In this document: piece by piece, positions 57,101 through 63,152 of the stretch | Numbering within the stretch: position 1 is the stretch's first letter | Layout: the number at the start of each line of letters is the position of its first letter | NCBI GenBank assembly: GCA_029251405.1 | Contig: JAQXDK010000013.1 | Location: forward strand, 1 to 64,000 | Direction of reading: 5' to 3' | DNA: 64,000 nucleotides | Origin: Flavobacteriales bacterium | GTDB lineage: Bacteria; Bacteroidota; Bacteroidia; Flavobacteriales_D; Parvicellaceae | Position numbers and translations under genes: made by a program | The notes under the pieces: generated by a model | The model's database searches: none | Told to the model about the DNA's origin: nothing | The model's input: only the letters and a program-made list of their open reading frames with translations

Positions 57101-58327
57101 ATGGACTCAAATACTTTAATAGATTTAGAAAATAATTTCGGTGCACATAATTACCATCCTTTACCTGTTGTCTTAGATAGAGGAGAGGGTGTATTTGTAT
57201 GGGATTCAGAAGGTAAAAAGTATTTTGATTTTTTATCTGCTTATTCAGCAGTAAACCAAGGACATTGTCACCCAAAAATTATTGAGGCTTTAGTAAATCA
57301 AGCTTCCAAATTAACTTTAACAAGTAGAGCATTTTTCAACAGCCAATTGGGACCTTATGAAAAGTTTATTTGCGAGCTATTTAATTATGATAAAGTATTG
57401 CCTATGAATACAGGCGTTGAAGGTGGTGAAACTGCTAACAAACTTGCAAGAAAATGGGGATATCTTAAAAAGAATATTCCAGAAAATAAAGCAAGAATTA
57501 TTTTTGCTAAAGGTAACTTTTGGGGAAGAACACTTGCTGCTATTTCTTCTTCTGATGATCCGCTATCTTATGAAGGGTTTGGACCTTACATGCCTGGATA
57601 CGATTTAATTCCTTATAATGATTTAGATGCTTTAGAAAATGAACTTAAAGATTCTAATGTTGCCGCTTTTATGGTTGAACCAATTCAAGGAGAAGCAGGA
57701 GTCGTTGTTCCAGACGAAGGTTATTTAAAAGGAGTTAGAGAGTTGTGTACTAAATATAATGTATTATTTATAGCAGATGAAGTTCAAACTGGAATTGGAA
57801 GAACTGGTAAATTATTAGCAACTGACTATGAAAATGCCAAACCAGATATATTAATTCTAGGAAAAGCATTGTCTGGTGGAGTGTTCCCTGTATCCGCTGT
57901 ATTAGCCAACAATGAAGTCATGATGTGTATTAAACCAGGTGAACATGGATCTACATTTGGTGGCAATCCATTAGCTTGTGTTGTTGCAAAGGCAGCTTTA
58001 GATGTAATAATAGATGAAAAACTTTCAGAAAATGCTTTTGAGTTGGGTAATTATTTCAGGAGTGAACTTAATAAATTTATTGAAAAATCTGATTTAGTTA
58101 AGTTAGTTAGGGGGAAAGGATTGTTAAATGCTATTGTGATTAATGATTTAGAAACTAGTGAGACAGCATGGAATCTTTGTGTAGAAATGAAAAATAACGG
58201 ATTATTAGCAAAACCAACTCATGGGAATATTATAAGATTTGCTCCTCCACTCACCATTACCAAAGAGCAATTAAAAACATGTACTGAAATTATTACAAAC
58301 ACTGTAGAGAACTATAGTGCTTCTTAG
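57101..58327 (+). CDS. rocD: Ornithine aminotransferase
   Basis: 408 aa class III PLP aminotransferase. [39 protein letters not shown] and [20 protein letters not shown] match ornithine aminotransferases, as does [10 protein letters not shown]. The PLP lysine is in [10 protein letters not shown] and the Asp in [27 protein letters not shown] follows. It converts ornithine and 2-oxoglutarate to glutamate semialdehyde, linking arginine and proline metabolism. A -7 box is upstream, and it converges on dnaN with a 4-nt stop overlap (TTAG). Confidence 0.95.
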
Positions 58328-59439
58328 GAATTTAGCATTACTGGCATAACCAGCATAAGAATATCTTCACCTTCATCACTATTATCAGGTATTAATATTC
58401 CAGCTCTATTGGGTGCACTTAGTTCAAAAATAACATTATCAGAGTCTATATTTTGTAACATCTCATTTAAAAATCTAGAATTAAATCCTATTTCCATAGA
58501 CTCTCCCTCATAAGAACAAGTTAGCCTTTCGTTAGCTTCATTGGAAAAATCAACATCTTCTGCGCTTATATTTAATTCACTTCCATTTATTTTAAGTCTT
58601 ACTTGATGAGTTGTTTTATTGGCAAAGATACTTACACGTTTTATAGATTGTGAAAAAGCATTTCTATCAACTGTGAGCCTATTTGGGTTCTCTTTGGGAA
58701 TAACAGCTTCATAGTTTGGATATTTTCCGTCTACAAGTCTACAAACCAATAGAATATCATTAAATGCTATACTAGCGTTGGATTCATTATATTGGATGGT
58801 CACATCCCCGTCATAACTTTGAAGTAATCCTTTCAATAAATTCATAGGCTTTTTAGGAACAATGAATGCTGATGGGGTAGCAGACTTTACATCGTTTCTC
58901 TTGTATCTTACTAGTTTGTGAGCATCAGTTGCAACAAAAGTTAGATGGTCTTCAGAAAGTTGAATAAAGATTCCACTCATAACAGGTCTTAAATCGTCAT
59001 TTCCAGAAGCGAATATTGTCTTTTCAATAGCTCTTTGAAAAATAAAACTACTTATTGAAACAGTAGATGGAGCTTCAATTATTGGAGATTTCGGGAATTC
59101 TTCACCATTGAAGCCACTTAATTTATACTTTCCGTAATCAGAAGAAATTTCAACACCCATCTTATCGTCGATAGAGAAGGTTAGAGGGTGATTGGGAAAA
59201 GTTTTCAAAATATCTAAAAGCATTTTTGCTGGTATAGCTACACTTCCTTCACTTTTAGCATCAATAGCTATTGTAGAAGTCATAGTAGACTCTAGATCGG
59301 AACAAGAAATTGTTAAATTTTGATCCTTAATTTCAAATAGAAAATTATCTAATATTGGTAGAGTATTAGAACTATTTAATACACCTCCAATAGCTTGTAA
59401 TTGTTTTAACAATACTTGACTAGAAACTATAAACTTCAT
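58324..59439 (-). CDS. dnaN: DNA polymerase III subunit beta (sliding clamp)
   Basis: 371 aa, standard for the three-domain clamp. The first domain starts [75 protein letters not shown] and the C-terminal [17 protein letters not shown] and LVMPVML are typical. It is the processivity factor of replication; the C-terminal domain pocket binds polymerase peptides. It is not next to dnaA here but lies 81 nt downstream of the DUF4340 gene that follows gldG. Confidence 0.97.
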
Positions 59440-59528: not shown

Positions 59529-60521
59529 TCATCTTGTAAAGAATGACAATGGTTTAAAGAGAATTTCCCAATTAAAATATTGTGCTCTTAGTAATTCATT
59601 ATTATTATTGACTCTAATATATCCATATTCAGCATCCCAACCATTGGGAGCATTTTCATCTTTTATTCTCCAAAAATCAACGTACGTAGATTGATTATCA
59701 ACATCTAACAAATTAAAAGATATAAATGGATCAGAATTAAATATTGAATCCATTATATTTTGATTTTCAAACATAATTTTATTGTAGGAAATATTGTTGA
59801 AATGTGTTAAATAATGCTTAACCTGAGAAGAATCATATTTTTTAATTTTTTCATTTTTAAAGTTTAAAAGAACAACATTGTTATTAGAATTTGAAATTGT
59901 AAAAGTTTCTTTACGATTTTGATAAAAATTAGTTGTTATTTTTTGAACACTTTTTGGGTTTTTATAAGAGAATATTCTAGGTGATCTCCACGCTTTCCAG
60001 TCTGTGAAAAATCTTACATCTAAAGTCCCATACATTCCTGGCTTATAGGTAATGTAGGGTTTTTCACCTTTTTCATCGTCTAGCTCTAAAAGCATGTAAG
60101 TCCCGGTGTGGTCTTGAGTTGGAGAACCGATATACCAAGATTTGTAAGGCAAATTTCTATCTAAAAATATGTCAACTTTTTTATGTCTTACTGAAAGTCT
60201 GTTAATTACAGTATTAAATGCCGATTTAGGGACGTCTTGTTTCACTCTAATTCTATAAAAAGTTTCCATTAATAAATCCACGCTAGGTTGACTTGCTTTA
60301 AAATCAGATCCTGCTATCATCCAAGTTCTGGAACTATTATCCCTAGTAATTAATATCTCGTCTCCCTCTGTATTAGATATTCTGAATTTAGAAATACTAG
60401 CAGTATCTTTAATTGCAAAATTTTTAAATATTTCAGTGTTTTTAGGATTTTCACATTGAAGACAAATGCTAACAGAAATAAATAAAATTAGAATACAGAA
60501 ATAGGTGTTTTTATTTAACAT
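59529..60521 (-). CDS. DUF4340-domain lipoprotein following gldG
   Basis: 330 aa from the ATG at 60521; a longer start at 60557 would put twelve extra residues before the signal. The N-terminus is a lipoprotein signal (MLNKNTYFCILILFISVSIC) with the lipobox Cys in LQCENP. The body matches DUF4340: FRISNTEGDEILITRDNSSR, TWMIAGSDFKASQPSVDLLM, ETFYRIRVKQDVP, SWYIGSPTQDHTGTYMLLEL, and FTDWKAWRSPRIFSY. The gene overlaps the gldG stop by 11 nt. DUF4340 proteins are, to my knowledge, often encoded beside GldG-like ABC proteins in other bacteria, so it is probably a third component of this complex. Confidence 0.85.
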   Translation of the reverse strand: MLNKNTYFCILILFISVSICLQCENPKNTEIFKNFAIKDTASISKFRISNTEGDEILITRDNSSRTWMIAGSDFKASQPSVDLLMETFYRIRVKQDVPKSAFNTVINRLSVRHKKVDIFLDRNLPYKSWYIGSPTQDHTGTYMLLELDDEKGEKPYITYKPGMYGTLDVRFFTDWKAWRSPRIFSYKNPKSVQKITTNFYQNRKETFTISNSNNNVVLLNFKNEKIKKYDSSQVKHYLTHFNNISYNKIMFENQNIMDSIFNSDPFISFNLLDVDNQSTYVDFWRIKDENAPNGWDAEYGYIRVNNNNELLRAQYFNWEILFKPLSFFTR

Positions 60522-62430
60522 ATTTATTTTTTCTAAAATATTGATTGAGTAGACCAAATACTATTATGAAAAGCAGGGGAAGAAGTATGTTTATTACTTG
60601 CCAGGTCTGTTTTTCATTAAATATTTCTTTTTTCAATAATCTTGGCATATTCATTTTAGATCTAAGTGGAATTAATTCGCTTTGTCCTAATAATTCATCT
60701 ACTAAATTTTGGAAAAACATACTGTTTCCATATCTAGGAAAAAATTCAGGTGTCCCATAATCTGCACTTTCAAATGATAATAAAACAGGTTTAATTTGAT
60801 CACTAATTTTAAGAAAATCATTTCTTATTAAATCACCATCTCCAATAAAAATCATTTTAGTTGGTACACTTGTTTCTTTAAATTTAACCAACGGATTACC
60901 AATAAATTTTTGAAATTCTTTACTTACAGCTCTATTTTGATAATTAGATTTGAAAACACCTTCAAAAAGCCATCCACATACTGGAGGTTTTGCTTCATTT
61001 TCGAAATTTTTAGGGTTGTAATTATAAAGATTTTGATAATTCACTGATGTTTGTCTCAATATTTTGTAATCTAATGAGGACTTTAGAAGTGCCGTCTTTA
61101 AAGTAGCATTATCACCTACAGTATCTATGGAACAAACGTATCTTGTTTTTACCGGACCTACATTTCTAAGGTATTTTGAAGGCTCGTCTAAATATAATAG
61201 TGGATAGAAATACCAATTAGGTATTCTTCCAAGACCATCTTCTCTAATTTTTGGAGAACATCTACTGTCATTTATCATGTTTACGTTAAATCTAGCTCCA
61301 TATTTAAAAAGAAATTGTTGTAATCCGTGATCAACTGCACTAGCATAAGTTATGTTGGTATCTTGGAGAATTGCTTCATTTACATCAAGCATATCTACTA
61401 ACCATATGATAGTACCACCATTCATTATATATTGATCAATTATAAAAAGTTCTTTTTCTGAAAATTTAGATCTTGGCTTTGCAACTATTAGCAAATCTGT
61501 TTTTTCAAGAACATTAAGATCTTCACTTACTTTGGAGGGATCTTCAAGAAAATTAGAAATGATTTTGTTTTGGAGATATTTTTTAATGTATCTCTTTGTA
61601 TTTTTATTGGGGTTATTAAGTTCATCAAAAATGGGGAACCCTCTTTTTCTTATAAAGATACTGTCAATAGAATTAGTTATTAAAGAATCGTATTTAGAAT
61701 TTGATAAGTCAATTGATTCATTGTAAAATTTTGTTTTCAATTGCTTAATTCTAAGAGTATCAACATCGTAATATTTAATAAGTTGGTCTCTAATAATCCA
61801 TGCATCAGCGTTGTCTATTTCTCCATGTCCTCTAAGAAATTTAATTTTTTTAGAATTGGGTTTTATAAGATTGTTTAGACCTAGAATAATATTGTATTCC
61901 AATTGATCGTTAAATTGGTTTATTATTGCTTGTGATATGGGAAACTTTCCTTTTTGGAGCAATTGTACGGGGGTAAACTGATCTCCCATTCTGAGGATTA
62001 TTCCACTCCAAATTCTAACAACTTCTTGTTTACTATCTCTAGATATTAAAATGTCTGTAAAGTCTATACCGTCTTTAAAAACTTGGTTTTTAAATTCTTT
62101 TGCTAACTCTGGATCTTCATCTAAATCAATATAATTTATTTGGAAATTTTCACCACCATAGGCTTTAAACTCGTCTAATTTCTCATTAAGTGATTTTTTT
62201 AATCTTTCAATTTCAGCTGGATAATCGCCAACTAAATAGACATCAGCAGTTATTATTTCAGAAAGATTTGATAAAGTTTCTTTAGAATTTTCAGATAAAG
62301 AATGGATTTTATCTTTGGATAAATCAAATCTGAAAAATGCAGTACTTGAAAATATATTAACCAAAAATATTAAAAGGATAACCAATATTAAATTTAACAA
62401 ACTACTGTATCGATTGTAAAAGGACATCAT
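60511..62430 (-). CDS. gldG: Gliding-associated ABC transporter substrate-binding protein GldG
   Basis: 639 aa. An N-terminal helix (SLLNLILVILLIFLVNIFSS) and a C-terminal helix (VINILLPLLFIIVFGLLNQY) anchor a large periplasmic region with LSKDKIHSLSENSKETLSNL, ITADVYLVGDYPAEIERLKK and INYIDLDEDPELAKEFKNQV, plus DUF4350/GldG-like LLIVAKPRSKFSEKELFIID and GGTIIWLVDML. Together with GldF and the ATPase GldA (not in this window) it forms an ABC complex linked to gliding motility in Flavobacterium. Its gene abuts gldF with a 1-nt overlap. Confidence 0.93.
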   Translation of the reverse strand: MMSFYNRYSSLLNLILVILLIFLVNIFSSTAFFRFDLSKDKIHSLSENSKETLSNLSEIITADVYLVGDYPAEIERLKKSLNEKLDEFKAYGGENFQINYIDLDEDPELAKEFKNQVFKDGIDFTDILISRDSKQEVVRIWSGIILRMGDQFTPVQLLQKGKFPISQAIINQFNDQLEYNIILGLNNLIKPNSKKIKFLRGHGEIDNADAWIIRDQLIKYYDVDTLRIKQLKTKFYNESIDLSNSKYDSLITNSIDSIFIRKRGFPIFDELNNPNKNTKRYIKKYLQNKIISNFLEDPSKVSEDLNVLEKTDLLIVAKPRSKFSEKELFIIDQYIMNGGTIIWLVDMLDVNEAILQDTNITYASAVDHGLQQFLFKYGARFNVNMINDSRCSPKIREDGLGRIPNWYFYPLLYLDEPSKYLRNVGPVKTRYVCSIDTVGDNATLKTALLKSSLDYKILRQTSVNYQNLYNYNPKNFENEAKPPVCGWLFEGVFKSNYQNRAVSKEFQKFIGNPLVKFKETSVPTKMIFIGDGDLIRNDFLKISDQIKPVLLSFESADYGTPEFFPRYGNSMFFQNLVDELLGQSELIPLRSKMNMPRLLKKEIFNEKQTWQVINILLPLLFIIVFGLLNQYFRKNKYVK

Positions 62431-63152
62431 TAGTTAGGTTTTAATACAGTTTTTGTAAGGAACAAAGCCAAAAATATTAAAGAAATAAAATAAATAAGGT
62501 CTCTTGAATCAATAATTCCTCTGTGTAAAGCATTGAAATGATCTAACATACTGAGTTTTATTAAATAATAGTCTAATGGATTTCCAACAAAAACAGCAAT
62601 ATATGAGATACCTAAATAAATAAAGAAATTAAAAAAAAGGCCTAGTAAAAAAGCTATTACTTGATTTTTCGAAAGACTGGATGCAAAAACACCAATAGCT
62701 ACAAAAGTTATACTTAATAAGATGAGACCTAAATAACCTCCAACAGTGGTAGGATGGTCTATGTTACCTACTATTTCTCCCATTTGATAAACACTTATGT
62801 AGTAAATCAAAGTAGGTAATATGGTAATTATAGCTAAAAAACTTGCGGCTAAAAATTTTGAAAAAATAATTTGAAAAATAGAAATCGGTTGGGTCATTAA
62901 AATTTCTAAAGTGCCAGTTTTTTTTTCTTCAGCAAAACATCTCATTGTAAAAGCGGGAAAAAGAAACATCAAAATTCCAGGTGCTTGACTGAAAAAAGTT
63001 TGTAAACTGGATTCACCCATATCAATAATGTTATTACTACCTGGGAAAATCCAAACAAAAAAACCAGAACTTATTAAAAATACTGCCATTGCAGTGTAGC
63101 CAATAATAGAACCTAGGTACGATCTTATTTCTTTTAAAAATAATGCTTTCAT
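62430..63152 (-). CDS. gldF: Gliding-associated ABC transporter permease GldF
   Basis: 240 aa with six membrane helices. KALFLKEIRSYLGSIIGYTA at the N-terminus, FPAFTMRCFAEEKKTGTLEI (the EKK-TGTLE coupling motif) and LLMTQPISIFQIIFSKFLAA are typical of GldF/ABC-2 permeases. SLSKNQVIAFLLGLFFNFFI and the DHFNALHRGIIDSRDLIYFI segment follow. It is the membrane subunit of the GldAFG complex. It is the first gene in the gldF-gldG-DUF4340-dnaN order, and a -7 box (TATATTCG, 63187-63194) precedes it. Confidence 0.94.
   Translation of the reverse strand: MKALFLKEIRSYLGSIIGYTAMAVFLISSGFFVWIFPGSNNIIDMGESSLQTFFSQAPGILMFLFPAFTMRCFAEEKKTGTLEILMTQPISIFQIIFSKFLAASFLAIITILPTLIYYISVYQMGEIVGNIDHPTTVGGYLGLILLSITFVAIGVFASSLSKNQVIAFLLGLFFNFFIYLGISYIAVFVGNPLDYYLIKLSMLDHFNALHRGIIDSRDLIYFISLIFLALFLTKTVLKPN

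Follow-up and report, generated by a model that had tools for sequence, protein, structure and literature searches.

A gene lying directly behind gldF and gldG in a Flavobacteriales genome probably encodes a periplasmic accessory subunit of GldG-type ATP-binding cassette (ABC) complexes, one that is ancestral, tethered to the membrane, optional and not required wherever gliding occurs. This third gene occupies positions 59529-60521 on the minus strand of the window, by which we mean the whole 64,000-nucleotide (nt) stretch analysed (GenBank assembly GCA_029251405.1, contig JAQXDK010000013.1, positions 1 to 64,000), and its product of 330 amino acids is a divergent DUF4340 homologue. Conserved close coupling to gldG, together with a predicted periplasmic product, makes an extracytoplasmic partner of GldFG the most economical reading; the interaction with GldFG and the position in the complex are what we infer.

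Between 58324 and 63152, all on the minus strand, the order is gldF-gldG-third gene-dnaN, and the coordinates bear out an earlier note on this DNA, which had described this order with overlaps of 1 nt between gldF and gldG and of 11 nt between gldG and the third gene. gldF (62430-63152) encodes an ABC-2 type permease of 240 amino acids (PF12679), and gldG (60511-62430) a protein of 639 amino acids (PF09822, 1.2e-50; PF23357). Both proteins score slightly below their NCBIfam equivalog cut-offs, GldF with 275.5 vs 288.5 bits (TIGR03518) and GldG with 358.8 vs 389.85 bits (TIGR03521). The third gene starts at an ATG at 60521, preferred over a possible TTG at 60557 because homologues align to the ATG, and is followed after 89 nt by dnaN (58324-59439; TIGR00663, 278.7 bits).

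The same arrangement recurs throughout the window's order. Of 120 genomes sampled from it, 114 have GldG, 111 the third protein and 109 both, and, judged by match coordinates, the third gene lies directly downstream of gldG on the same strand in 101 of these 109; the remaining eight comprise five genomes of family f13 with the gene elsewhere and three (G025, G053, G065) that involve contig ends or a run of N. Five order genomes have GldG without the third protein (G012, G013, G046, G047, G078) and two the third protein without GldG (G005, G111), which may be a mix of incomplete genomes and real losses. In a first set of 42 loci the third gene stands behind gldG in 39 (exceptions L028, L029 and L041). 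Of 67 loci that have both genes, 59 place them no more than 40 nt apart and 26 show an overlap, in a count that takes as start the methionine codon nearest the end of gldG, favouring small gaps, and that takes in a wrong-frame open reading frame (ORF; L087), a duplicate (L085, of L012) and second-system loci.

In a sample of 198 genomes from the phylum, the third protein was scored by a match either to PF14238 or to profile A1, built from 34 proteins (the window's own and 33 homologues from its order). GldG occurs in 87 of these genomes and the third protein in 51, all of them with GldG (Fisher p 5e-24, with no correction for relatedness). Across the other classes of the phylum, Bacteroidia left aside, the third protein accompanies GldG in 39 of 40 genomes, directly downstream in 35 of the 39, and the GldG match of the lone exception (G273) is marginal. 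In Bacteroidia outside the window's order it was found in 9 of 44 GldG genomes, namely in all five of family f18, in three of six of f19, and in G299, as part of a second, separate system. Family f17 gave no A1 match in 17 genomes with GldG, and its lone PF14238 protein, that of G299, adjoins a second GldG-type gene. Co-occurrence of DUF4340 with gldFG, proposed in the earlier note as a check, is therefore split: it holds in 109 of the 114 order genomes with GldG and in 51 of 87 across the phylum sample, but beside canonical gldG the third gene is present in only 8 of 44 GldG genomes in the rest of Bacteroidia and in none of the 11 loci titled Flavobacterium.

The pairing of GldG with DUF4340 reaches beyond Bacteroidota. 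In a Pseudomonas aeruginosa record (CP109682.1), an ATPase, a permease, a GldG family protein and a DUF4340 protein are annotated in a row; as in the window, permease, GldG and DUF4340 follow one another in the same order, whereas in the record 1 nt separates the last two, the ATPase is part of the operon and the DUF4340 protein exceeds the Pfam cut-off (51.7 bits). Pseudomonas is not known to have a type IX secretion system (T9SS). Since the GldG-DUF4340 pair occurs there too, the cargo is probably not gliding-specific, a reading that depends on this record. A passage in PMC8088628 describes PA4040 as a DUF4340 protein adjoining PA4041 (mandelate racemase), and this PA4041/mandelate racemase flank matches the flank in CP109682.1. 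The adjacency is thus visible in public annotation, and the partner is not wholly unrecognised, contrary to what the earlier note had suggested. A search of the literature for PA4037-PA4040 returned no paper with two or more of these names, 'ABC_transp_aux' did not occur in the papers turned up, and the two papers found to name DUF4340 held no word beginning with 'Gld' in their main text. A search of a plasmid collection with a distant DUF4340 protein found nothing, and one with its neighbouring GldG found one P. aeruginosa record.

Second GldG-type genes with a GldA-like ATPase match close upstream also occur in some genomes of the window's order (G060:C82, G001:C51, G066:C93 and G013:C378; L067, L066). 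The second system of L067 has ATPase, permease, GldG and DUF4340 in a row, the DUF4340 gene last (PF14238, 42.4 bits), and differs from the window locus in its shorter GldG (502 amino acids), its adjacent GldA-like ATPase and its DUF4340 protein of 307 amino acids. Since the third gene accompanies GldG of either type and is found outside the class as well, we take it to be ancestral and subsequently lost.

The DUF4340 label given by the earlier note stands as a statement of homology but not at the Pfam threshold, the third protein scoring 19.1 bits against PF14238 (E 0.0016) vs a gathering cut-off of 25. At E 0.001, PF14238 has no match in the window's own genome or in the genomes of its order within the phylum sample (G000, G008, G009), and the PF14238 search had none in any of 14 control genomes. 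Compared profile to profile, A1 and A4, the latter made from 12 DUF4340-type proteins of other lineages or second systems, align over 251 columns with 99.7% probability and E 1.8e-25, and two homologues, from families f18 and f19, clear the Pfam cut-off in their own right (39.2 and 39.9 bits). These comparisons support the third protein as a divergent DUF4340 homologue, outside the reach of the Pfam model.

Its AlphaFold2 model (mean predicted local distance difference test, pLDDT, 93.8) has an N-terminal helix (residues 4-21), Cys23 and two alpha/beta regions, at about 40-161 and 181-325, whose boundaries are a matter of judgement. In the A1 alignment a well-conserved stretch, FAIxDT, lies just outside the anchor, and six residues are invariant across the 34 aligned proteins of the order. 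Sequence searches of solved structures gave no credible relative (best E 0.12 and 0.94), a Foldseek fold search nothing at E <=0.001, and the best VIA row covers 101 residues of the second region only (Z 5.8, root-mean-square deviation, rmsd, 3.8); from the predicted model we claim no known fold, for or against. The two halves have predicted elements in similar order and compare weakly as profiles (E 0.029, probability 1.7%), which leaves an internal duplication as a suspicion.

The AlphaFold2 model of GldG (mean pLDDT 84.9) comprises an N-terminal helix (2-30), probably a membrane helix, a large intervening part predicted to be periplasmic and a C-terminal helix (607-638). The sequence matches IFT52 among solved structures (E 0.0003), and the predicted model superposes on the IFT52 N-terminal domain with Z 21.1 and rmsd 2.6 over 216 residues, which places a GIFT fold in the periplasmic part. 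The model also matches chains of oligosaccharyltransferase entries, which we take to be OST48/Wbp1, with Z 16.5 to 18.3. The GIFT link between GldG, IFT52 and Wbp1 is already known (Beatson and Ponting 2004, as cited in a passage of PMC7226087). Judged from their anchors, the bulk of GldG and that of the third protein would lie at the same face of the inner membrane.

How the third protein is anchored varies. A lipobox usually carries a small residue at position -1 before the cysteine; in the window, Cys23 (codon at 60453-60455, minus strand) ends the N-terminal helix and is preceded by C-L-Q, a C-L-Q-C sequence that departs from this rule. The glutamine at -1 makes cleavage of the window's putatively lipidated protein uncertain, and a plain membrane anchor is possible. 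The lipobox reported by the earlier note is thus irregular, although the cysteine at the helix end is real and is kept in the window's clade, where several relatives have more regular lipoboxes (LFSC, LTSC, FTGC). The cysteine at the window's position was found in 12 of 55 homologues scoring over 120 bits, and the other judgeable homologues have a longer hydrophobic N-terminal helix without it, an anchor that looks uncleaved; in this survey the N termini of L016, L042 and L087 could not be judged, those of L027, L053 and L123 carry their cysteine at another place, and a few that the motif search had miscut were read from the A1 alignment.

The cysteine-bearing form makes up a single clade, with support of 0.989 in the tree of the third protein, 0.999 in that of GldG and 0.986 in that of DnaN (51, 51 and 30 tips, respectively), and in the third-protein tree this clade is nested among anchored forms. 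The lipoprotein character noted earlier therefore looks like a late swap; it belongs to one clade and is not a trait of the family. The exchange of an anchor for a cysteine signal fits a protein that must stay tethered.

A dnaN-anchored scan confirmed 586 places, and the best 80 of them, an uneven sample, were taken as named loci; gldG lies upstream of dnaN in 67 of these, with the third gene between the two in 13 (metagenome-assembled genomes labelled Flavobacteriales, Crocinitomicaceae or Bacteroidetes, one of them labelled Chitinophaga pinensis). Of the 54 that lack it, 53 have only 65-344 nt between gldG and dnaN, which is too short for the third gene and hence a clean absence at this place, the rest of those genomes not having been searched. 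The loci without it include ones titled Winogradskyella, Kordia and Muricauda, and most bear names of Flavobacteriaceae. All 11 loci titled Flavobacterium lack it between gldG and dnaN (F. johnsoniae was not checked); they resemble the window in having gldF and gldG, then dnaN, with the same permease and a GIFT-type GldG, and differ in having no third gene before dnaN. Passages on F. psychrophilum place gldG upstream of dnaN (PMC5682007) and passages on F. columnare give an operon gldFG (PMC5879114), in both cases with no mention of a third gene in those passages. Within f19, examined at one locus per genus, g62 and g78 have gldF-gldG-third gene-dnaN and g66 has gldF-gldG-dnaN, which looks like a second, independent loss.

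Repeated absence of this kind, in Flavobacterium and its relatives and in g66 as against g62 and g78, would suit an operon passenger kept by chance and without function. We regard this as highly improbable, since the same order behind gldG is found in several classes and in Pseudomonas, six residues are invariant among the 34 aligned proteins, and, according to a passage in PMC12283558, a DUF4340 domain is essential in Verrucomicrobium.

Other genes occupy some of these loci. Those behind gldG in six f15/f17 loci were considered as relatives of the third gene and proved unrelated (TerC twice, PAP2, pterin-binding, DUF2911 and aspartyl protease). In seven Flavobacteriaceae-type loci (L090, L095, L104, L109, L128, L143, L156), an unrelated gene for a protein of 161-167 amino acids lies between gldF and gldG (e.g., L095:3208-3702), touching or overlapping its neighbours; the protein has a hydrophobic N terminus, and two members show weak, sub-threshold BamE matches at their C-terminal end. 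These operons, which lack the third gene, thus carry an accessory of another kind.

The same absences weigh on the proposal that the third protein belongs to the gliding ABC complex as a lipoprotein subunit and that gliding requires it. Its gene shares an operon with gldF and gldG, and the window's genome encodes SprA (G000:C39:55408-62628) and, on one contig, GldJ (G000:C11:24549-25709) and a GldA homologue (G000:C11:6801-7703; 392.5 bits vs a cut-off of 402.6), so that at least part of a T9SS/gliding gene set is there; across the phylum sample, moreover, the third gene occurs only together with SprA. Yet passages in PMC9127263 describe gldF and gldG mutants of F. johnsoniae as non-gliding, whereas the third gene is missing beside gldG in all 11 Flavobacterium-titled and in 53 of the 67 named loci. 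Flavobacterium is the genus in which the gliding genetics of GldAFG was worked out, and absence there argues against a general gliding requirement. DUF4340 also occurs with GldG in Pseudomonas, and the cysteine signal is confined to one clade, so we think a gliding requirement quite unlikely. What survives of the extracytoplasmic GldFG subunit that the earlier note proposed is a conserved periplasmic companion, supported by gene coupling and predicted topology, and not a general part of the gliding complex.

Several observations count against an accessory subunit of GldFG. In four genomes of f13 (G017, G031, G037, G042) the third gene is retained away from gldFG, so coupling to gldFG is not essential; in G024, of the same family, it is probably also elsewhere, with gldG cut by a contig end. 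In Bacteroidia beyond the window's order, the third protein went undetected beside canonical gldG in 36 of the 44 genomes that have GldG. No fusion of GldG with the third protein was seen among the loci mapped, whereas a single ORF matches both GldF and GldG in 12 loci from several lineages (L026, L031, L038, L039, L051, L061, L094, L098, L100, L103, L115, L149), which is natural support for a GldF-GldG complex. Tree distances gave a partial r of 0.37 for the third protein and GldG and of 0.72 for the third protein and DnaN given GldG (30 loci), so that co-evolution with GldG beyond the species signal was sought and found no excess. Finally, the T9SS marker SprA, present in 154 of the 198 phylum genomes (67 of them without GldG), is found in every genome that has GldG (87 of 87) or the third protein (51 of 51). 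The phylum sample therefore cannot separate the GldG system from the T9SS, and the case for independence from T9SS and gliding depends on the Pseudomonas record.

Two further comparisons stand beside these. Some positions of GldG, among them A72, L217, M336 and R597, show stronger conservation in loci with the third protein than in those without (50 vs 66 loci), a lead only, confounded by relatedness. Among the 120 order genomes, GldJ matched in all (71 over the cut-off), with matches in 2 of 14 controls, and the GldA search was unspecific, matching all 120 (86 over the cut-off) and all 14 controls.

The detached gene in f13 would also suit a product that is merely co-transcribed, serving the same envelope process, such as the stability of GldJ/GldK-type lipoproteins, without touching GldFG; passages of a 2023 review, in which GldAFG is without clear function and acts on secretion through GldK stabilisation (PMC10202324), point the same way. 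Against this alternative, which we consider unlikely, speak the nesting of the third gene within GldG genomes across the phylum sample and its pairing with GldG in the Pseudomonas record.

If the third protein is an accessory subunit of GldG-type complexes, the ATPase (in Bacteroidia GldA, whose gene lies elsewhere in the genome) would drive the membrane permease GldF, while GldG on its two membrane helices and the DUF4340-type protein on its single N-terminal anchor would form the periplasmic part, outside the inner membrane. There the DUF4340-type protein would most likely pack against the membrane-near part of GldG or of GldF and may help to pass ATP-driven movement, or cargo, into the periplasm. 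The persistence of GldFG without it in Flavobacterium and relatives would mark it as an optional subunit, by loss rather than gain, and in the window's clade, where a cysteine signal has replaced the membrane anchor, the tether alone would have changed. In F. johnsoniae, according to passages of PMC9127263, both GldJ and GldK depend on GldA for their stability, as GldK does on GldF.

A broader picture, which we hold only tentatively, is that ATPase, permease, GldG and DUF4340-type protein together form a general envelope ABC machine older than gliding, with the DUF4340-type protein as its standard extracytoplasmic subunit, held by either of two kinds of tether, and with the GldAFG of Flavobacterium as a reduced form. 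Passages of the 2023 review ascribe no clear function to GldAFG (PMC10202324). Should a further subunit prove standard outside the Flavobacterium lineage, what the complex does may be easier to learn from bacteria that do not glide, and models based on F. johnsoniae may be pictures of a reduced form.

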